From: Janthinobacterium sp. 64
GTDB taxonomy: Bacteria; Pseudomonadota; Gammaproteobacteria; Burkholderiales; Burkholderiaceae_D
DNA: 64,000 nucleotides
Direction of reading: 5' to 3'
NCBI RefSeq assembly: GCF_002813325.1
Contig: NZ_PHUG01000001.1
Span: 5,945,386-6,009,385 of the forward strand
Made by a program: the position numbers and the translations under genes. The notes under the pieces are model-generated. The model ran no database searches and had not been told where the DNA came from. It saw only the letters and a list, made by a program, of their open reading frames with translations. Below, one piece after another: positions 10,079-61,169 of the stretch; position 1 is the first letter of the stretch; every line of letters starts with the position of its first letter.

Positions 10079-11113
10079 ATGCAAATCGATACCATCCGCC
10101 AGCGCCTGCGCGCCTTGGGCGCCAAGCCCCTGCACGAACAGCGCGTGCTGCGCGACTGGATCCAGGGCCAGCCGCACGACCAGGGCCGGCGCCGCGCCGA
10201 GGATTTTTTGCCGCTGCCCGTGCGCGTGGCCTTGCCCGCGTTCGACCTGGAATTGCAAGGCATGCTGAAACTGCTCAGCACCCATCCGGGCGCGGACGGT
10301 TCCGCGCGCCTGCTGGTGGGACTGCACGATGGCCAGACGGTGGAAAGCGTGCTGCTGCCGCGCGACGGTTTGTGCGTATCGAGCCAGGTCGGCTGCGCCG
10401 TGGGCTGCCAGTTCTGCATGACGGGCCGCGACGGCTTGATCCGGCAAGTCACCAGCGGCGAGATCGTCGCGCAGGTGGTACTGGCGCGCACCATGCGTCC
10501 CGTGAAAAAAGTCGTCTTCATGGGCATGGGCGAGCCGGCGCATAACCTGAACAATGTGATGGAAGCGATCGAATTGCTGGGCACCGAGGGCAATATCGGC
10601 CACAAGAACCTCGTGTTTTCCACCGTGGGCGACCCGCGCGCCTTCGAGCGCCTGCCGCAAGGCAGGGTCAAGCCGGCGCTGGCGCTGTCTTTGCATACCA
10701 CCAAACCGGCGCTGCGCGAACAGCTGCTGCCGCGCGCGCCCAAGCTCACTCCGCGCGAACTGGTGGACTTTGGCGAGTCATATGCGCGCCTGACCGGCTA
10801 CCCGGTGCAGTATCAATGGACCCTGATGGAAGGCGTCAACGACGGTGACGATGAGATGGACGGCATCGTCGCGCTCTTGCAGGGCAAGTACGCGGTGCTG
10901 AACATGATCCCGTATAACACCATCGCCGACTTGCCGTTCAAGCGTCCCAGCTGGGAAAAGGCGCGCGCCATTGCCGCCGCGCTGCACGAACGCGGCGTGC
11001 TGACCAAGCTGCGCGATTCGGCCGGGCAGGACGTGGAAGGCGGCTGCGGGCAGTTAAGGGCGCGCGAAGCGAAGGGCAAGGTCATTCCCATCCGCGCCAG
11101 CGTGGCGGCGTAG
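10079..11113 (+). CDS. RlmN/Cfr-family radical SAM RNA methyltransferase, paralog
   Basis: A radical SAM protein of the family that methylates C2 of adenosine in 23S rRNA and some tRNAs. The cluster motif is CAVGCQFC (Cys106, 110, 113). The second mechanistic cysteine lies in GGCGQLRA (about Cys323). SAM-site residues occur in FMGMGEPAHNLNNV and LALSLHT. It is 344 residues, shorter at the N-terminus than canonical RlmN (about 380), and its neighbours are not those of the usual betaproteobacterial rlmN. I therefore treat it as a paralog whose RNA target is unknown. The stop codon lies in a dispersed palindromic repeat. Confidence 0.85.
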   Translation: MQIDTIRQRLRALGAKPLHEQRVLRDWIQGQPHDQGRRRAEDFLPLPVRVALPAFDLELQGMLKLLSTHPGADGSARLLVGLHDGQTVESVLLPRDGLCVSSQVGCAVGCQFCMTGRDGLIRQVTSGEIVAQVVLARTMRPVKKVVFMGMGEPAHNLNNVMEAIELLGTEGNIGHKNLVFSTVGDPRAFERLPQGRVKPALALSLHTTKPALREQLLPRAPKLTPRELVDFGESYARLTGYPVQYQWTLMEGVNDGDDEMDGIVALLQGKYAVLNMIPYNTIADLPFKRPSWEKARAIAAALHERGVLTKLRDSAGQDVEGGCGQLRAREAKGKVIPIRASVAA

Positions 11114-18328: not shown

Positions 18329-19033
18329 TCAACCGCCATGATTACGGAATGTAAAACGGGGAAACATGGCGCCGATTTGCGCCACCGTGCTCGCCGCCGG
18401 ATAGCCGTGCAGGGGGCGATCGGCCAGCGCCGCATCCACGCAGCCTTCGGCGCGGAACTGCTGCAGCACGTAGTTGGCGACGCCTTTGGCGGCCAGGGTG
18501 CTGGCCAGGGCCAGCAACTGCTCGTCGGGCAGCAGGTCCGGATGGGTGGTGGTGCGGCATTCGTAGGCGACGCCGCTGGCAAGGATGGCGTCCAGGCAGG
18601 CGCGCGCCGGGTCGCCGCTGCCGGCCACGCGGGTCACATGACGATAGTCGGCAAACGGTGCCTTGATGTCGAAGCCGACCCAATCGACCAGGGGCAGCAC
18701 TTCCTGCAGGCGCTGCGGATAGATGCAAGCCGTGTGCAGGCCGATGCCGAAGCCCAGTTCCCTGACGTCGTGCATGGCGCGCGCCAGCGCCGGGTCCATG
18801 CACGCCTCGCCGCCGCTGAAGACGACGGCGTCGACCAGGCCCACGCGGCGGCGCAGCCAGGTCAGGACGTCCTGCCACGGCATGGCGCCTTCCGGCGTGC
18901 GCGCCTGCAGATGCGGATTGTGGCAATAGCCGCAACGCCAGGGGCAGCCCTGCACGAACACCACGGCGGCCAGCTTGCCCGGGTAGTCGGTGGCGGAAAA
19001 GGGCGTCAGGCCACCCACTTTCAACTCAGCCAT
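18329..19033 (-). CDS. nrdG: Anaerobic ribonucleotide reductase activase
   Basis: A radical SAM enzyme that uses a [4Fe-4S] cluster and SAM to make the glycyl radical on the class III reductase. The cluster motif is CPWRCGYC (Cys30, 34, 37) inside VFVQGCPWRCGYCHNPHLQ, and VVFSGGEACMDPAL supplies the SAM-contact Gly-Gly-Glu. The 234-residue length is normal. It overlaps the small glycyl-radical gene by eight bases, so nrdD, the radical segment and nrdG form one transcript. Confidence 0.93.
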   Translation of the reverse strand: MAELKVGGLTPFSATDYPGKLAAVVFVQGCPWRCGYCHNPHLQARTPEGAMPWQDVLTWLRRRVGLVDAVVFSGGEACMDPALARAMHDVRELGFGIGLHTACIYPQRLQEVLPLVDWVGFDIKAPFADYRHVTRVAGSGDPARACLDAILASGVAYECRTTTHPDLLPDEQLLALASTLAAKGVANYVLQQFRAEGCVDAALADRPLHGYPAASTVAQIGAMFPRFTFRNHGG

Positions 19034-35995: not shown

Positions 35996-37576
35996 ATGTC
36001 CCCCTTCAATCTGTTCCAGCGCATCTCCCAGGCCCCCACCAAACCCAAGTCCGCGCCCGTTGCGCGGCAGTTCGACGTGGCGGACCTGTACCAGGGCCCC
36101 ATCGCGCTGGGAGCGGAAGGCGAGACGCAGGCGCGGCCTTTCGATGAAAAGCTGCGCCAGGCGTATTTTTGGATCGTCAACCACGCCATCATCAGCCCCC
36201 ATTACGACATCGAGTACAACGACGGCCCGTCGCAGACGTATTCCGTGGGCGACAGCCGCCGCACCTTGAATCTGCCGTCGGCGCAAAGCTATTCGAGTTT
36301 CATTTTGCTGCCGCTGCTGACGTTTGCCACGCGCCGCAAATGCCTGTTCGTCGGCGGACCGGGACGGGGCAAGACGGCCAGCGCCTTGCTGATGGGCGTG
36401 CTGGCCGGCTCCACCGTCAAGGAAGTCAAACGCGCCATGCAGCATGGCCACCCGCAGATGACGGTGGCCGACTTGCTCGGCAACCCGCTGCCGGCGGACC
36501 TGGTCAACGCGCAAAGCATGGACGATATCCGCATCGCCTGGCGCGCCTGGCTGGGCATGCGCGTAAAAATCGTCGATGAATACAACCGCATCCCCACGCG
36601 CACGCAAAGCGCGCTGCTGACCGTCATGGGCGACAATTACGCGGAAGTGCTGAACCACATTTACGAGTGTCCGGAAGCGGCCTGGTATCTGACGGCCAAC
36701 GACGACCAAGGCGGCGGCACCTACCAGGTGATCGAAGCGCTGCGCGACCGGGTCGACGTGACGGTGCAGGCGCTGGCCTTCAACCCGCGCTTCCTGAACG
36801 AGTTGCTGCTGCGCGTGGAAGAAAACGTGCGCCCCGAAGAGCTGGTGCCGCCCGATATCATCTTCACGGAAAGCGAGGTCGATCAGATCGGCGAGGCGAT
36901 CCGCCAGGTGGGTATCCCCGACGCCGTGCGCCGGCGCCTGGAATTTTTCGCCAGCCAGTTCGAGCTGTTCGAGACGGCCGGCGGCCAGTTCGAATACATG
37001 ACCAAGGACACTGCCCGCCTGGCCGGCGCCGACCGGGGGCAGGCGCAGGCGGCCGACAATGGGCGCGACCGCCTGAAGGATCTGGGCTGCCAGACCCTGA
37101 ACGGCATCTCCGTGCGCACCTTGATGGCACTGATGATCTACGCCAAGGCCATGGCGTATTTCCGCGGCAATGGCGAGGTGGAGCTGGAAGACTTGCGCCA
37201 GGTGCTGCCGTTTGTGTTGCATAACAAGCTGCAGCCGGATCCGGACGCGCCATTTTTCGCGCTGCCGGAAAACGCCGCCTACCGCAGCGACAGGCTGGGC
37301 TGGCTGCGCCGTTTGTTCGATCTGTCGAACGATGAATTCAACCGCCTGGACCTGGACCGCGACGATCCTGTCGGCGTGCTGTCGGCCGAATTCGACCTGG
37401 GCCTCGATGGCGTCAGCGAACGCGAAACCCTGGCGCGTTTGAACCGCATCGAAAAACTGATCGGCGAGCGCACGAAAGGGCGAAAACTGTACGGTCCCCT
37501 GTACGACGATTTGTTGAAACTCAAATACCTGCACCAGCGCTATACCAACTACCGCAGCTGGCTGCGTTCGCAATGA
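35996..37576 (+). CDS. MoxR-type AAA+ ATPase, first gene of the VWA/NadR operon
   Basis: A 526-residue AAA+ ATPase. Walker A is GGPGRGKT (about 120-127), Walker B is VKIVDEYNRIP (Asp194, Glu195), the sensor segment is YLTANDD, and a trans-acting arginine lies in ALRDRVDV. MoxR-type ATPases remodel or insert cofactors into targets together with VWA-domain proteins, and such a protein is encoded three genes downstream. The N-terminal 100 residues and C-terminal 200 residues are not standard MoxR and may bind the partners. The next gene overlaps by four bases (ATGA). Confidence 0.88.
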   Translation: MSPFNLFQRISQAPTKPKSAPVARQFDVADLYQGPIALGAEGETQARPFDEKLRQAYFWIVNHAIISPHYDIEYNDGPSQTYSVGDSRRTLNLPSAQSYSSFILLPLLTFATRRKCLFVGGPGRGKTASALLMGVLAGSTVKEVKRAMQHGHPQMTVADLLGNPLPADLVNAQSMDDIRIAWRAWLGMRVKIVDEYNRIPTRTQSALLTVMGDNYAEVLNHIYECPEAAWYLTANDDQGGGTYQVIEALRDRVDVTVQALAFNPRFLNELLLRVEENVRPEELVPPDIIFTESEVDQIGEAIRQVGIPDAVRRRLEFFASQFELFETAGGQFEYMTKDTARLAGADRGQAQAADNGRDRLKDLGCQTLNGISVRTLMALMIYAKAMAYFRGNGEVELEDLRQVLPFVLHNKLQPDPDAPFFALPENAAYRSDRLGWLRRLFDLSNDEFNRLDLDRDDPVGVLSAEFDLGLDGVSERETLARLNRIEKLIGERTKGRKLYGPLYDDLLKLKYLHQRYTNYRSWLRSQ

Positions 37577-38040
37577 GCGTCCTGCATTGTCAAGGCTTCC
37601 TCGAAGCGCTGGCGCTACTCAATAGTGAAGCGAGCGATCTGTGTGCGAGCTATGAGTTGCGGCGCCTGCCCGAGGCGCCCGACCTCGCCACGGCGCTGGG
37701 CTTGCGCGTGGAAGATCATGCCTTGCGCGTCATCGCACCCGCGCGCGACTTGCCGGCGGCCCTGTGGCACATCAAGGTGGTGCCGTGCGGGCGCGCGCAG
37801 CTGGAACAGGTATGCCAGCGCTGGTTTTTCTCATCGCAGCACATGCAGGCGGCGCCGGCCGGGCGCTTGCGCGCGCAGCTGGTGGCCGCTTTTCTGGAAT
37901 CGCTCGACGCCGCGCTTGGTGGATTTTCCCTGCACGCCGTGACGATGACGCCACCAATGTGGTACGCGATTCACTGGGACGAGATCGCGTTCGAGCGCGA
38001 TGGCGAACGCTATCTGCTGCACTTTTCGCATAGCGACTGA
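37573..38040 (+). CDS. Protein of unknown function in the MoxR/VWA operon
   Basis: I do not recognise this 155-residue protein. It has no membrane segment or signal peptide and looks globular and acidic, with several Cys (VVPCGRAQLEQVCQRWFFSS). The C-terminal part (MTPPMWYAIHWDEIAFERDGER) is the most distinctive. It is embedded between the ATPase and the next unknown gene with a four-base overlap upstream and nine bases downstream, so it is probably an obligate component. Confidence 0.75.
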   Translation: MSVLHCQGFLEALALLNSEASDLCASYELRRLPEAPDLATALGLRVEDHALRVIAPARDLPAALWHIKVVPCGRAQLEQVCQRWFFSSQHMQAAPAGRLRAQLVAAFLESLDAALGGFSLHAVTMTPPMWYAIHWDEIAFERDGERYLLHFSHSD

Positions 38041-38049
38041 AAGGCTGCG

Positions 38050-39021
38050 ATGATTTCTCCTGCCTTTGCCTCGATCCTTGCCAGCGGCCGCGCCCAGTTC
38101 AATGCGCGCGCGGCGGAAGCGCGCCGGCGCTTTCCCGCGCTCGACATGGCCGCCTTCGGCGCCTTCTTGCACGATGGCGTCGATCCGCTGGTGGTGGCCG
38201 TGGCCGCTGCCGCGCCCGAGCGCGTGGGCGGCGCGACCCTGGCCGCCTACGACATGGCCCTGGAACTGGTGGGCCATGGCCTGGCCGGTCCGGCCGCGAA
38301 AAACCCGTTCTTGAATACCGTGTGGCGCGAACTGGCGCCGCAGTTTGCGCCGCTGCTGGCGACGGCGCCCGTGGATGTATTGGGCATGCTCAGCAACGCC
38401 GCCATCCACATAGCCTCCGTGGCGGGCGCGCGGCCCGCGCAGTGGCAGGCCGGGATGGCTGCCGTGGCGCCGCAAGTGGGCAGCGTCGCGCAGCTGCGCG
38501 CCGTGGGCCAGGTGCTGGCCTGGCGCGCCGGCGTCGCGCATTTCCGCCTGGGCGCGCTGGCCGCCGCCGACACCTTGCCGCCCGCCTTGGCGCTGGCCGC
38601 GTTTGGCGAACCCGGTGCGCAGTGGCCGCAGGTGCATGCGCAGCTCATGGCGAATCCATGGCGCGGCAATGCCGATGGCCGGGAGTTCGGTTCCTTTACG
38701 GGCCTGGGAGGCGACTTCGGCACGCCGCCGCAAGTGCGCGCCACGGCTGACGGTTTTGTCGTGCGCAGCGCCGAGCGTCACTACCTGCTGGTGGCCGACG
38801 CCTGTGGCGCCGTGCTGCATAGCGCCACGGCGCAGGAGTACGAGCAAGCCAATACCGGCATGCCGCCGTCCGTGCGCCTCGATGGCGCGACCGTGCACGT
38901 CGGCGCGCGCAGCATCGCGCTCGACCTGCCGGCCGGCGACATCGCGCTTGCCGCGAATGCGCATACGCTGGCCATCACGTCGCCATGGACGCACGCGATC
39001 CGCCTGCTGCCGCTCGCATGA
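38050..39021 (+). CDS. Ala-rich helical protein of unknown function in the MoxR/VWA operon
   Basis: I do not recognise this 323-residue protein. The first 190 residues are alanine-rich and probably helical, of a HEAT-like or repeat-adaptor character. The last 110 (VRATADGFVVRSAERHYLL) look beta-rich. There is no signal peptide. It overlaps the VWA/metallopeptidase gene by four bases (ATGA), which makes it a likely adaptor for that protein or for the ATPase. Confidence 0.75.
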   Translation: MISPAFASILASGRAQFNARAAEARRRFPALDMAAFGAFLHDGVDPLVVAVAAAAPERVGGATLAAYDMALELVGHGLAGPAAKNPFLNTVWRELAPQFAPLLATAPVDVLGMLSNAAIHIASVAGARPAQWQAGMAAVAPQVGSVAQLRAVGQVLAWRAGVAHFRLGALAAADTLPPALALAAFGEPGAQWPQVHAQLMANPWRGNADGREFGSFTGLGGDFGTPPQVRATADGFVVRSAERHYLLVADACGAVLHSATAQEYEQANTGMPPSVRLDGATVHVGARSIALDLPAGDIALAANAHTLAITSPWTHAIRLLPLA

Positions 39022-40781
39022 AGACTACCGCCGACAGCGCGCTGATCGACGCCTGGCGCGCCGCCTGGCGCGAGGCCCTGGCCGTGTGGAGCAAATTTAC
39101 GCGCCTGCGCGACCCGAATCTGTGCGCCAGCCGCGTCGAGGCCAGCAAGCAGGGCTTGTCCGGCAGCTTCGCCATGATCCGCCTGCTGGACCAGAGCGTG
39201 GTGGTCGACTTGCCGCTGGTGACGGAACTGGGGCTGGACGACTATGCGCTGGAAATCCTCGCGCATGAAATCGGCCACCACATCCTCGCGCCGGGCAGCG
39301 CCAGCGACCAGTTCCGCCTGCTGGCGCGCATGCGCCGCGCCTTGCCGACGCTGGAGCAGCACGCGCCCATGGTGGCCAATCTGTACACGGACCTGTTCAT
39401 CAACGACCGTCTGCAGCGCCAGGCGAATTTGCGCATGGCCGACATCTACCGCAAACTGGAGCAGGGGCGCTCTGTGGAGGCCAAGGCCAGCGGCGGCGTA
39501 TGGACCCTGTACATGCGCATCTATGAAAACCTGTGGCAGCTGGAAAAGGGAGAGCTCGGTGGCGGCCAGGCCGACGAGCGCCTCGACACGGATGCCTGGC
39601 TCGGTGCGCGGCTGATCCGCGTCTACGCGAATGACTGGATGCTGGCGGCGGGCCGCTTCGCCACCTTGCTGCTGCCCTATCTGGTGGAAGACACGGACGC
39701 GTTGAGCCCGAGCCGCTATCTGCTCGACACGCGCGACGCGGCCCGTGGCTGCCAGACGTACGGCGCGCAGCAGATCGAGGATGACGAGGAGGACGGCGCC
39801 ATCCATCCCGTGCACGACAAGCGCATCTCCGGCCTCGATGGCGAAGAACCGCAAGCCGAGGCGCCGGCCAGGCAAGGCGGCGGGCAACTGCGCGAACCGT
39901 TCGAGCTGGGCGACATTTTAAAGGCCTCGGGCATCGACCTGAGCGACCATGAAATCGCCATCCGCTATTATCGCGAGCGGGCCTTGCCGCACCTGGTGGC
40001 GTTTCCCAGCCGCCCCGCACCCGAGTCGCAGGAGCCGCAGATGGAAGGGCTGGAGCAGTGGGAAATCGGCGACCCGTTGGAAGACATCGACTGGCTGCAA
40101 TCGGTGATGCAGTCGCCGCGCCCCGTGCCGGGCGTGACCACCGTGCGCCGCGTATATGGCCGCGAGCCGGCGCGCGCCATCGATGCCGTGCCAGTCGACC
40201 TGGACATGTACGTGGACAGTTCCGGATCCATGCCGAACCCGCAGGCGCATACCTCGTTTTTGACACTGGCCGGCGCCGTCATCGCGCTATCGGCCTTGCG
40301 CGCCGGCGCGAAAGTGCAAGTGACCCTGTGGAGCGGCAAGAACCAGGTGATGCAAACGCCCGGTTTCGTGCGCGATGAAGACCTGATCCTGGGCGTGCTG
40401 ACGCAATTTTTTGGCGGCGGCACCTGTTTTCCCATCCACTGCCTGCGCAAGACCTATGCGGGCAAGCGCGAACGGCCCGCGCACATCTTGATGATTTCCG
40501 ACGATGGCATCACCACCATGTTCGACAACGATGAGCTGGGCAACAGCGGCTGGGATATTTCGGCGAAAGCGCTGGCCCAGGGCGGCGCGGGCGGCACCAT
40601 GGCCCTGAACCTGGAGCGCGACTGGGAGGGCGCGGCCAGCCACACGTGGCTGCAGAAAACCTACGACGATTTGAAGCGCGCGCGCCGCGAGCAGGGCTGG
40701 GATATCCATGCCGTCGAGCGCTACGAGGACTTGCTGGACTTTGCGCGGGCGTTTAGCCGCAGGCATTATGTGAAGAGTTAA
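39018..40781 (+). CDS. Zinc metallopeptidase-like/VWA fusion protein
   Basis: A 587-residue two-domain protein. Residues 1-230 resemble the metallopeptidase-like domain of DUF2201-type proteins, with HEIGH (83-87) in ILAHEIGHHIL and the downstream NLYTDLFINDRLQ that may supply a third ligand. An acidic linker (about 252-295) follows. Residues 390-587 form a von Willebrand A domain with the MIDAS motif D400-S-S402-G-S404 (DMYVDSSGSM). MoxR/VWA pairs act as chaperone-like machines; here the VWA partner itself carries a putative protease site. Whether it cleaves anything is inference. The start at 39018 overlaps the previous stop (ATGA). Confidence 0.87.
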   Translation: MKTTADSALIDAWRAAWREALAVWSKFTRLRDPNLCASRVEASKQGLSGSFAMIRLLDQSVVVDLPLVTELGLDDYALEILAHEIGHHILAPGSASDQFRLLARMRRALPTLEQHAPMVANLYTDLFINDRLQRQANLRMADIYRKLEQGRSVEAKASGGVWTLYMRIYENLWQLEKGELGGGQADERLDTDAWLGARLIRVYANDWMLAAGRFATLLLPYLVEDTDALSPSRYLLDTRDAARGCQTYGAQQIEDDEEDGAIHPVHDKRISGLDGEEPQAEAPARQGGGQLREPFELGDILKASGIDLSDHEIAIRYYRERALPHLVAFPSRPAPESQEPQMEGLEQWEIGDPLEDIDWLQSVMQSPRPVPGVTTVRRVYGREPARAIDAVPVDLDMYVDSSGSMPNPQAHTSFLTLAGAVIALSALRAGAKVQVTLWSGKNQVMQTPGFVRDEDLILGVLTQFFGGGTCFPIHCLRKTYAGKRERPAHILMISDDGITTMFDNDELGNSGWDISAKALAQGGAGGTMALNLERDWEGAASHTWLQKTYDDLKRARREQGWDIHAVERYEDLLDFARAFSRRHYVKS

Positions 40782-40809
40782 ATAAGATGAATATGCGCAG
40801 CAAAATTCC

Positions 40810-40836
40810 GGGGTCAGACCCGGCGGGTCTGACCCC
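40810..40836. repeat. Palindromic repeat GGGGTCAGACCC, copy 1
   Basis: GGGGTCAGACCC (40810-40821) and GGGTCTGACCCC (40825-40836) pair perfectly across a GGC loop. An identical 27-bp copy lies at 61143-61169. This copy sits in the only sizeable gap (87 bases) of the MoxR/VWA operon, where it could act as a transcript-processing or attenuating hairpin. Confidence 0.88.
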
Positions 40837-40868
40837 AGCATTTGCCGTTGGGTTGAGGTAACGACATC

Positions 40869-41462
40869 ATGATGCAAATCGGTCCCCACCTCGAAACCCT
40901 GACCCACCGCCTGGCCGACACGCCCGTCGAATTCCTCGCCGAGCCCCGTATCGCCGGCGTCGCCAATGCGCAGGCGGTGGCGGTGGCTGCACTGGTCAAC
41001 GACATTTTGCTGCTGCATGGCGCGCGCGCGCCGGCCGCGTCCCTGCAGGGTTTTATCGGCGCGCAAGTGAAGGCGGACCGCAACCGGCTGGCGCTGGCCA
41101 TGATCGTGTGCTGGCTGCTGGCCGACGACTGGTTCACCGGGCAGCAGTTGCCGCAGCATGATCTGCTGCAGGTGCTGGGCGAGGCGGCGCGCGAACTGGC
41201 CGCCAGTACGCCCGCCCACCAGTTCACGCAAGACCCCGAGCGGCGCGAGGAACTGGCGCGCATCGTGCTGGCGCGCCTGGGCTTTCGGCCCCGCGACGAA
41301 AGCGTGGCGCAGGCCACGGACAGGTTGTCCGCCATCAGCGGCACGGAACGGCGCCGCTTGCTCGAAGCGAGCCGGCTGGCCGAGCAGCGCGCGCGCGAAA
41401 TCCGCGAGGCGCTGGCGAAAAAGGCGGCCGAGGAATCGGCCGACAAGTGGTCGCGCGAATGA
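40869..41462 (+). CDS. Helical protein of unknown function in the MoxR/VWA operon
   Basis: I do not recognise this 197-residue protein. It is almost entirely helical: an N-terminal Ala/Leu-rich half with a Cys-Trp patch (LALAMIVCWLLADDWFTGQQ) and a C-terminal arginine/glutamate-rich coiled-coil-like half (RRRLLEASRLAEQRAREI). No signal or membrane segment is visible. The C-terminal codons overlap the start of the adenylate-forming gene by four bases (ATGA), so it is translated together with it. Confidence 0.7.
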   Translation: MMQIGPHLETLTHRLADTPVEFLAEPRIAGVANAQAVAVAALVNDILLLHGARAPAASLQGFIGAQVKADRNRLALAMIVCWLLADDWFTGQQLPQHDLLQVLGEAARELAASTPAHQFTQDPERREELARIVLARLGFRPRDESVAQATDRLSAISGTERRRLLEASRLAEQRAREIREALAKKAAEESADKWSRE

Positions 41463-42838
41463 CGCTCGCTGGCAAACCTGACGTCAATCTGCCGGGCGGC
41501 GCGTGGGAATCGGACCGCGACTACTGTCCCACCCTGACACCGGCGGGCGCGCGCATGCTGGAAAAACTGCGCGGCCATCCTTGCGCCCCCGTCTATCGCA
41601 ACCGCAGCGGCAACAAGCTGCAGGCGGCGGAAGTGGCGGCCTTGCACGCCTATGAGCGGGAAGTCATGGACGCGGTAGTCGCCTGGAGCGCGGCTGCGCC
41701 GCCATCCTGGCTGCCCGATTTTCTCAAGGTGACTTATGCCACGGTGCCGTACTACCGCGCCTGCGGTTCGCCCCCGGCGCGCCTGGCGGACGTGGCGCCC
41801 ATCAGCCGCGCCGAGCTGGCGCACGATATCGCCGCCTTTGTGCCCGACGATGCGGATCTGGCGCGCATGATCAATTTCCAGACCACGGGCACCACGGGCC
41901 ACCCGCTGCTGATCGCCTCGCACCCGCTGGTGGCGGGCCGTTACCTGGCCTTCCACAAGCGCGCGCTGCGCCGCTTCGGCGTGACCCTGCGCCATGGCGC
42001 GGGCCAGGTGGGCGTCATGCTGCTGGGGCACCAGCGCCGCTGCTTCACCTATGTCTCCGTCACGCCCACGATGGACGAATCGGGCCTGGCGAAGATCAAC
42101 CTGCACCCGGACGACTGGCGTCAAGCTGAAGACCGCGCGCGCTACCTCGACGCCATGGCGCCCGAGCTGATCGCGGGCGACCCCATCTCGTTTGCCGAGC
42201 TGCTGACCCTGCCCATGACGCATAAGCCGGCCGCATTGATGTCCGTTTCGATGATGCTGTTGCCGGGCATGCGCGCGCGCCTGGAACAGCGTTTCGGCTG
42301 CCCCGTGCTCGACATCTATTCGCTCAATGAAGTGGGACCCGTGGCCGTGTACGACGAGCAGGCGGGCGGCCACGTGCTGCTGCAGCACCGGCTGTACGTG
42401 GAAATCCTCGATAGCGCGGGCCAGCCCGTGCCGGATGGCGCGCGCGGCGAAATCACGGTGACGGGCGGTTTTAACTTTTGCCTGCCGCTGGTGCGCTACC
42501 GCACGGGCGACTACGCTTCGCTGGCGCATGGCCCGCACGGTCCCGTGCTGGTGGGCCTGGCGGGCCGCAGCCCTTTGCGCTATCGCACGGTCAACGGCGA
42601 GTGGATCAACAATATCGACATCACGCACGCCTTGAAACCGCTGGCCATCGCCCTGTTCGGCGTGCACCAGCATGGCGACGGCAGCGTCGCGCTGCGCCTG
42701 GCGCCGGGCGCCATGCCGCAGGCGGATCGGGCGCGCGCCTTGCTCGCGCCTTTTTTCGGCGCCATCGCGGTCGAGACTTTGCTGGCGGAAGACAAGATCA
42801 TTCAATACACCTCGGATTTGCAGGAAGCAGCAGTATGA
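41459..42838 (+). CDS. PaaK-like adenylate-forming enzyme
   Basis: A 459-residue member of the acyl-adenylate superfamily, closest in feel to phenylacetate-CoA ligase/CapK types. The ATP-binding loop is FQTTGTTGHPLLI, the adenine motif is YSLNEVGP (YxxxE), and the ribose motif is VRYRTGDY. The C-terminal subdomain is short. It should activate a carboxylate as AMP ester; the acceptor is unknown. The ATG at 41459 overlaps the preceding stop, and its own stop overlaps the NadR-like gene by four bases. Confidence 0.85.
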   Translation: MTLAGKPDVNLPGGAWESDRDYCPTLTPAGARMLEKLRGHPCAPVYRNRSGNKLQAAEVAALHAYEREVMDAVVAWSAAAPPSWLPDFLKVTYATVPYYRACGSPPARLADVAPISRAELAHDIAAFVPDDADLARMINFQTTGTTGHPLLIASHPLVAGRYLAFHKRALRRFGVTLRHGAGQVGVMLLGHQRRCFTYVSVTPTMDESGLAKINLHPDDWRQAEDRARYLDAMAPELIAGDPISFAELLTLPMTHKPAALMSVSMMLLPGMRARLEQRFGCPVLDIYSLNEVGPVAVYDEQAGGHVLLQHRLYVEILDSAGQPVPDGARGEITVTGGFNFCLPLVRYRTGDYASLAHGPHGPVLVGLAGRSPLRYRTVNGEWINNIDITHALKPLAIALFGVHQHGDGSVALRLAPGAMPQADRARALLAPFFGAIAVETLLAEDKIIQYTSDLQEAAV

Positions 42839-43866
42839 ACAGATACAAACGGGGTCTGGTCGTGGGCAAATTCTGTCCGCTGCACCTGGGCCATGAGTTA
42901 TTGATACAGCGCGCCACGGACGGGTGCGAAGAACTGCTGGTGGTCAGCTACACCAGGCCTGAGTTTCCCGGCCTGGAACCGGCGCGCCGGGAAACCTGGC
43001 TGTGCGCGCAGTTCCCGCAGGCGCACATCGTGGTGCTCGACGATGCGCGCCTGGCCGCCCTGTGCGCGGCGCGCGGCGTGCCTGCGCGTTCGCTGCCGCA
43101 CAACGACGACGAGGGCGACGCGCATCGCCACTTCATGGGCTGGCTGTGCTGGACGGTGCTGGCGCTGCCCGTCGATGCGGTGTTTACCAGCGAGGATTAC
43201 GGTCCCGGCTTTGCGCAGGTGCTGGAAAGGCATTACGCGCTGGGCGCGGTGGCGCACGTCAGCGTGGACCAGGCGAGAACGCTGGTGCCCATATCCGGCA
43301 CGCTCGTGCGGCAAGACCCGCAGGCGCACAGCGCCTTCCTGTCGCCCGTCGTGCGCGCCGATCTTGTTACGCGCGTGTGCGTGCTGGGGGGCGAATCGAG
43401 CGGCAAGACCACCCTGGCCGCCGCGCTGGCAGCGCATTTCGATACCGGCTGGGTAGCCGAGTATGGCCGCGAGCTGTGGGAAAGCCAGGATGGCATTTTG
43501 GTGTATGACGATTTGCTGAAGATCGGCCGGGAACAGCTGCGCCGCGAAGCGCAAGCGCTGTTGGCTGCGCGGCGCTGGCTGTTTTGCGACACCTCGCCCC
43601 TGACCACGTATTTTTACTGCGTCGAGATGTTCGGCAGGGCCGAGCAGGAACTGGCGCAGCTGGCCGGATATCGTTACGACCTGGTGCTGCTGTGCGCGCC
43701 CGACTTTCCCTTCATCCAGGATGGCACGCGCCGCGACGGCGATTTCCGCGCGCGCCAGCATGCGTGGTACCAGGCCGAGCTGGCGCGGCGGGGGATCGCC
43801 TTTGTCAATGTGTCGGGCACGGTCGCAGACAGGGTCGGGCAAGTCGCCCAGTTGCTCGCGCGCTAA
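42835..43866 (+). CDS. NadR-like bifunctional NMN adenylyltransferase/ribosylnicotinamide kinase
   Basis: A 343-residue two-domain protein. Residues 1-165 are a nucleotidyltransferase with the HxGH motif (KFCPLHLGHELL, His17/His20) and ISGTLVR (153-159), both diagnostic of NMN adenylyltransferase. Residues 180-343 form a P-loop kinase with GGESSGKT (185-192), like the NadR ribosylnicotinamide kinase. It lacks the N-terminal helix-turn-helix of enterobacterial NadR, so it is an enzyme rather than a regulator. It would turn nicotinamide riboside into NAD. It is the last gene of the MoxR/VWA operon, and its stop lies within a half-copy of a dispersed palindrome. Confidence 0.88.
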   Translation: MNRYKRGLVVGKFCPLHLGHELLIQRATDGCEELLVVSYTRPEFPGLEPARRETWLCAQFPQAHIVVLDDARLAALCAARGVPARSLPHNDDEGDAHRHFMGWLCWTVLALPVDAVFTSEDYGPGFAQVLERHYALGAVAHVSVDQARTLVPISGTLVRQDPQAHSAFLSPVVRADLVTRVCVLGGESSGKTTLAAALAAHFDTGWVAEYGRELWESQDGILVYDDLLKIGREQLRREAQALLAARRWLFCDTSPLTTYFYCVEMFGRAEQELAQLAGYRYDLVLLCAPDFPFIQDGTRRDGDFRARQHAWYQAELARRGIAFVNVSGTVADRVGQVAQLLAR

Positions 43867-61142: not shown

Positions 61143-61169
61143 GGGGTCAGACCCGGCGGGTCTGACCCC
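61143..61169. repeat. Palindromic repeat GGGGTCAGACCC, copy 2
   Basis: Identical to 40810-40836, with perfect 12-base arms and a GGC loop. It lies between the operators and the LacI gene. Confidence 0.88.

Follow-up and report, generated by a model that had tools for sequence, protein, structure and literature searches.

Closest described systems

MoxR-type AAA+ ATPases encoded with a partner protein carrying a von Willebrand factor A (vWA) domain include NorQ/NorD and other chaperones for assembly or cofactor insertion (PMC9976466, PMC13036017; what is said of these and the papers cited below refers to the parts of their text that were consulted). In group 2.2 jumbo phages a MoxR ATPase adjoins a protein made of an N-terminal metallopeptidase and a vWA domain, and a role in virion assembly has been proposed for the pair (PMC7824862). 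The MoxR-vWA ternary conflict systems add a third conserved protein, a helical/beta-propeller component in one class, and in some of them radical SAM proteins or zincin peptidases are found (PMC7159879). Here we describe a run of seven genes (g1 to g7) on the + strand of Janthinobacterium sp. 64 (host genome 6.3 Mb), at positions 35996-43866 of a 64,000-nucleotide stretch of DNA that was analysed as a whole (henceforth referred to as the window). In this run, the MoxR-vWA pair is combined with a putative metallopeptidase region, a PaaK-like adenylate-forming enzyme and a NadR-like enzyme of nicotinamide adenine dinucleotide (NAD) salvage. A preliminary description, made from the sequence alone, knew of no described system with this gene set, and our search of open-licence papers likewise found no publication on it. 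The features are:

g1: 35996..37576, + strand, MoxR-type AAA+ ATPase, 526 aa
g2: 37573..38040, + strand, 155 aa, Janthinobacterium-only in tblastn
g3: 38050..39021, + strand, 323 aa, proposed scaffold
g4: 39018..40781, + strand, HEXXHH putative metallopeptidase fused to vWA domain, 587 aa
Dispersed palindromic repeat in the g4-g5 gap: 40810..40836, no strand, second copy at 61143-61169
g5: 40869..41462, + strand, 197 aa, all-helical
g6: 41459..42838, + strand, PaaK-like adenylate-forming enzyme, 459 aa
g7: 42835..43866, + strand, NadR-like nicotinamide mononucleotide (NMN) adenylyltransferase/ribosylnicotinamide kinase, 343 aa

Like the NorQ/NorD-type chaperones, the locus encodes a MoxR ATPase with a vWA partner (PMC9976466, PMC13036017), but here a HEXXHH region precedes the vWA domain at the N-terminus, and the locus has fixed companions in g3, g5 and the adenylating enzyme. 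The jumbo phage pair shares the metallopeptidase-vWA architecture next to MoxR; however, the consulted parts of PMC7824862 make no mention of g3, g5 or g6 for the phages, and tblastn found no phage relative of g4 or g1 at E≤0.01, nor a plasmid relative of g4. With the ternary conflict systems (PMC7159879) it has in common a MoxR protein, a vWA protein and a third conserved protein, although the proteins here are strongly conserved. None of the 71 g1 proteins has the WxxxG and PxWR motifs of the VMAP class or the P-loop GxxxTAKS that is frequent in the FtsH and propeller classes (PMC7159879). Among the genes of the operon we saw no hypervariable one that would correspond to the variable effector of those systems; the least conserved core gene is g3, whose median identity to the best-matching query is 45% outside Janthinobacterium.

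A core gene order shared by distant bacteria

Relatives were found by a genome scan with two short peptide patterns and a g4 alignment; it confirmed 161, of which the 80 best were kept. This sample leans to the kin of Janthinobacterium (19 of the 80 loci), and many loci are metagenome bins whose phylum labels come from the submitters' record titles. Presence of a gene means a tblastn match at E≤1e-4. By this measure g1 was present in 74, g3 in 79, g5 in 76, g6 in 74 and g7 in 65 of the 80 loci; among the 73 with more than 5.5 kb after g4, the counts were 71 for g5, 70 for g6 and 63 for g7. The core order g1-g3-g4-g5-g6, with gaps below 400 bases, recurs in 67 of 80 loci (19/19 in Janthinobacterium, 48/61 elsewhere), and in 59 it continues into a contiguous NadR gene. 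The gene run is therefore not due to chance, nor is the order confined to this genome, which the preliminary description had named as the finding that would count against it. Its reading of the layout was also correct: the genes overlap by ATGA start/stop sequences at exactly four junctions (37573, 39018, 41459 and 42835). Gaps of 9 and 87 bases separate g2 from g3 and g4 from g5. Thirteen loci break the core order, seven of them with g4 no more than 1.3 kb from a contig end; a contig end fails to explain the lack of both g5 and g6 in L081.

The g4 tree (66 rows, comprising 5 of the 19 Janthinobacterium sequences and all 61 others) carries the labels of eight phyla, namely Pseudomonadota, Verrucomicrobiota, Acidobacteriota, Chloroflexota, Actinomycetota, Gemmatimonadota, Thermodesulfobacteriota and Cyanobacteriota, with 9 label changes against a minimum of 7. 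Two loci labelled 'Acidobacteria' (L020, L021) group among Pseudomonadota and may be misbinned or transferred. Within the genus, 32 of 40 genomes have g4, one of them with an in-frame stop. In the family it is found in 14 of 145 genomes, and operon-type g6 (>590 bits) in exactly those 14, with a broken remnant in a further genome, G038. A g5 profile run over 398 genomes of the phylum gave three strong matches, our own genome included, and one broken fragment. Among the best 120 of 3035 g4 homologues, names are mostly Janthinobacterium, with top identities of 96-97%. The system is rare and patchy, and it recurs in distant bacteria.

How closely the parts evolve together was assessed by Spearman's rho of pairwise distances, a measure uncorrected for shared ancestry and taken from a set cleared of fragments, duplicated genes and g7 proteins reduced to the NMN adenylyltransferase (NMNAT) half. 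Core pairs gave rho 0.75-0.91 overall and 0.68-0.86 outside Janthinobacterium, with 0.91 (0.86 outside the genus) for g1-g4 and 0.89 (0.85) for g5-g6. The radical SAM protein found in many relatives (see below) reached 0.84 with g5 and 0.83 with g6. Values were lower for NadR against the core genes (0.60-0.72, and 0.47-0.61 outside Janthinobacterium; NadR-g6 0.61); for PnuC, a transporter gene described below, they were 0.46-0.75, and 0.68 for PnuC-NadR.

Proteins of the core

Profiles and motifs bore out the gene content given in the preliminary description, including its MoxR/vWA pairing and the coupling of the genes. The product of g1 exceeds the Pfam cut-offs for AAA_3 (32.2 vs 27) and AAA_lid_2 (31.7 vs 22.7), which identifies it as a MoxR AAA+ protein. 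A motif check recovered Walker A in 71/71 relatives and the Walker B motif DEYNR in 70/71, and identity to the window copy is 63-82% outside Janthinobacterium. (The names Walker, MIDAS and ANL, as applied to motifs in this work, are assignments that we take in part from general knowledge.) In g4, an N-terminal HEXXHH region (HEIGHH) precedes a vWA domain with a metal ion-dependent adhesion site (MIDAS). HExxHH is kept in 80/80 loci, and H83, E84, H87 and H88 are invariant in the 43 aligned members; so are D400, S402, S404 and D495, the probable MIDAS positions, and a stricter MIDAS text pattern matches 70/80 loci. A search of the 43 g4 members found no Pfam peptidase family, while the HExxH motif is present in 80/80.

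The three proteins that the preliminary description did not recognise, g2, g3 and g5, match nothing in Pfam at E≤1. They differ in standing. By tblastn, g2 is present in 15 of the 19 Janthinobacterium loci and in none of the 61 others; it is therefore no general component, although it had been counted as one, and it probably lies outside the conserved system. The g3 protein is helical over residues 1-201 and beta-propeller-like over 208-323. For g5, the model has an all-helical fold with a predicted local distance difference test score (pLDDT) of 92.4, and comparison with the PDB gave no useful structural match. Found in nearly all loci, g5 is the best marker of the system. Both g3 and g5, families without a Pfam model, gain a firm genomic context.

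The adenylating enzyme g6 has the AMP-binding fold and adenylation motifs of PaaK and the DVU_1553-family AMP-dependent CoA ligases. It is barely above the Pfam AMP-binding cut-off (30.3 vs 29.9), and its ANL-type motifs are present in 71-72 of 72 relatives. Unlike those ligases, it scores far under both equivalog cut-offs, with 44.9 vs 646 bits for PaaK and 80.5 vs 300 bits (E 1.2e-22) for the DVU_1553 type.

In many relatives a radical SAM protein of ~322 aa is encoded between g4 and g5. It was found in 27/80 loci, none of them Janthinobacterium, and lies directly 5' of g5 in 22, so the seven-gene set of the preliminary description, which does contain the core, lacks here a part that many relatives possess. 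The CxxxCxxC motif is intact in 24/24 of these proteins. One of three scanned has a weak SPASM match, and the weak matches of the protein include peptide and cofactor maturases. An assignment as viperin-like was rejected, since the scores of 44-58 bits lie below the cut-off of 180. The position of the gene varies: it lies upstream in L063, and in L028 (11776-17100) ~5.4 kb of other open reading frames (ORFs) separates it from g4, with the remaining downstream order kept. In the Acidobacteria-labelled L074 (11725-18324), g5-g6 is present twice and flanks the radical SAM gene.

A looser NAD salvage module

The g7 product is well above the Pfam AAA_28 cut-off (123.3 vs 27) and matches solved NadR proteins; its match to TIGR01526 NadR (2e-48) has 165 bits and falls short of the equivalog cut-off of 341. 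The motifs of both domains are present, with HxGH of the NMNAT domain in 64/64 and the kinase P-loop pattern in 60/64. Of the four misses, three are NMNAT-only proteins, all in Chloroflexota (L072, L075, L077), and the fourth (L071) is by eye a variant P-loop. Many relatives also encode PnuC, a nicotinamide riboside transporter of ~187 aa, between g6 and g7: it is present in 29/80 loci, none of them Janthinobacterium, and directly precedes g7 in 27. The arrangement is that of PnuC-NadR nicotinamide riboside salvage, but it is joined here to a MoxR-vWA operon, and in the three Chloroflexota loci only the NMNAT half remains. In L069 (PnuC and radical SAM) and L071 (PnuC and NadR), copies lie on the opposite strand beside the operon.

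Our own genome has two PnuC genes, neither in the operon. One shares 61-70% identity with the PnuC proteins encoded in the operons of L022, L034 and L052 (35% with that of L074), which suggests that the operon-type PnuC was relocated within this genome. The second PnuC-type gene (L123, G000:C1:1824983-1826061) adjoins a NadR-like protein with the kinase domain only, near a TonB-type receptor ORF, and may belong to a distinct locus for the uptake of a nucleoside or vitamin.

Two-domain NadR is found in 20 of the 145 family genomes, that is, the 14 with g4 and six without (G038, G138, G111, G094, G029, G067), and PnuC adjoins NadR in four of these six (G038, G138, G111, G029). In G038 (L111) the PnuC-NadR pair adjoins a broken g6 fragment, and g4 was not found in that genome; apparently the core was lost and salvage retained. 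In nine related genomes the operon has no linked NadR. Four of them have a two-domain match beyond the fetched region (G539, G540, G544, G546); G542 has a partial match, G541 a kinase-only one and three have none. Since it occurs without the operon and co-varies more weakly, PnuC-NadR is a salvage module associated with the core but looser than the core genes are with each other. The 'one machine' of seven parts in the preliminary description is therefore too strong. Overall, what that description observed was confirmed, and its interpretation is partly supported.

Possible roles of the operon

We tentatively propose, at a probability of roughly 0.45, a remodelling machine of the MoxR-vWA type that includes a fused putative protease and acts, together with the acid-activating g6, on a client protein, with NAD salvage attached. 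In such a machine g1 would form a ring powered by ATP. The g4 protein would bind the client by means of the vWA MIDAS and act on it with the HEXXHH site, possibly by proteolysis, while adaptor or scaffold functions in the complex would fall to g3 and g5. The g6 enzyme would activate a carboxylate to an acyl-adenylate and, in many species, the radical SAM enzyme would add a radical step; together these steps may mature or repair the client or supply it with a cofactor. PnuC-NadR would import nicotinamide riboside and convert it to NAD, perhaps as a cofactor of the client or as a replacement for spent NAD. The action of MoxR-vWA pairs such as NorQ/NorD in cofactor insertion (PMC9976466, PMC13036017) is an analogy that favours this proposal. 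Also in its favour are the conserved core order with NadR often next in line, the intact catalytic motifs, the co-variation within the core and of the radical SAM protein with g5 and g6, and the joint occurrence of g4 and operon-type g6 in the same 14 family genomes.

Several results weigh against it. Neither client, complex nor activity has been observed here, and the scores of g6, far under the PaaK and DVU_1553 cut-offs, do not indicate its substrate. The vWA assignment of g4 is shallow by profile: its VWA_2 score is 15.8, below the Pfam cut-off of 27, a vWA profile matches 26 of 43 members at E≤10 (best 1.5e-4), and a wider g4 profile has no match to solved chains at E≤10. In some loci g5 or g6 is missing although g1, g3 and g4 are kept; L055 lacks both despite 10 kb of available sequence. 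The radical SAM gene is missing from 53/80 loci and has no match in our own genome (E≤0.001), and the pairwise distances are uncorrected for shared ancestry.

The strongest rival, which we consider unlikely though well ahead of the others, alters only the NAD part of the proposed machine: the five core genes have a function of their own, and PnuC-NadR shares their transcript as an independent cassette for nutrient salvage. The pair without an adjoining operon in three genomes and beside a broken g6 in a fourth, the weaker co-variation of both its genes, the PnuC genes elsewhere in our genome and the absence of g7 from 10 of the 73 loci with sufficient sequence all point this way. Yet NadR is next in line in 59/80 loci, the rearranged copies in L069 and L071 stay beside the operon, and five of the nine genomes without linked NadR have a complete or partial two-domain match elsewhere. 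Less probable is a part in making a peptide-derived cofactor or a modified peptide: the radical SAM enzyme would carry out the modification and g4 the trimming, g6 would activate a carboxylate, and MoxR-vWA would deliver the product. The maturases among the weak radical SAM matches, the intact cysteine motif and the co-variation with g5 and g6 would suit it, but the enzyme is limited to a third of the loci and absent from our genome, and the neighbouring ORFs (above 70-80 aa) contain no further conserved gene.

An anti-phage or stress role, in which MoxR-vWA would be a threshold switch that releases a protease or adenylating enzyme as effector while PnuC-NadR replenishes NAD, seems marginally more doubtful again. 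It would account for the patchy rarity in family and phylum, and published conflict systems do combine MoxR-vWA with radical SAM and zincin peptidases (PMC7159879); a ThsA/SIR2-like gene also lies 3' of the operon in L080. Against this, none of the seven operon genes matches a PADLOC family at E≤0.01 (best g7-mad8, E 0.051), g1 is too well conserved to resemble hypervariable effectors, the flanks are shared among strains, most genomes of the genus have g4, and no phage or plasmid match was found. Least probable of all, g7 as NMN adenylyltransferase and g6 (with g5) would build or attach a NAD- or adenylate-derived group that MoxR-vWA-protease installs on or strips from a client. If so, the three NMNAT-only loci would show that NMN adenylylation, and not riboside uptake, is the conserved need; however, one of their genomes has a kinase-only relative elsewhere, and the NadR-g6 rho is a mere 0.61.

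The operon ties a MoxR-vWA machine with a putative fused protease to carboxylate adenylation, often radical SAM chemistry and NAD salvage, across distant phyla, which makes it possible to look for the client by deleting genes in a culturable, harmless host. To our knowledge, few MoxR-vWA pairs have a known client.

Flanking regions and the intergenic repeat

The association with defence islands that the preliminary description had wanted checked found no support: besides the PADLOC result, the upstream flank is common to 18/19 Janthinobacterium loci (L014 is cut there) and the downstream flank to 13/19. The window flanks look metabolic, with amylase, maltose-transport, porin, carbohydrate-kinase, aquaporin and efflux families (among 25 of 60 families). 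A set of 46 window-flank ORFs (47 automatic ones, one large dropped and one reverse ORF swapped for a permease gene) matches five PADLOC families, C3a214/GlgB with two ORFs and mad3, mad8, AriA and pVip with one each, which we read as generic relatives. Defence as the principal interpretation was rejected on the PADLOC result for the operon genes, the shared flanks and the presence of g4 in 32/40 genus genomes; a defence role is possible but unsupported.

For the relatives, the flank set held 83 ORFs, 81 from 150 of 184 automatic ones and two added by eye for their defence-like looks (L068, L080), and its PADLOC matches were considered for 25 of 45 matching families. In L080 (13053-16932, an Acidimicrobiia bin) downstream of g6 come first a radical SAM-like ORF of a different kind and next a SIR2-like ORF; the set that includes the latter has a ThsA match at 5.2e-31. 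In the window, the flank ORFs at 10079-11110 (+) and 18332-19033 (-) have CxxxCxxC motifs and are not close relatives of the operon radical SAM protein; two window-flank ORFs have a match to Pfam Radical_SAM, and a single ORF has one to the anaerobic ribonucleotide reductase family.

The g4-g5 gap holds a palindrome of two 12-base inverted repeats around a 3-base centre, present at 40810-40836 and again at 61143-61169, where the number expected in the window is 0. It occupies this gap in some Janthinobacterium strains and not in others: in 6 of the 19 loci the gap is 1 base and the palindrome is absent. It resembles a dispersed intergenic element inserted in some strains, and is no part of the system.

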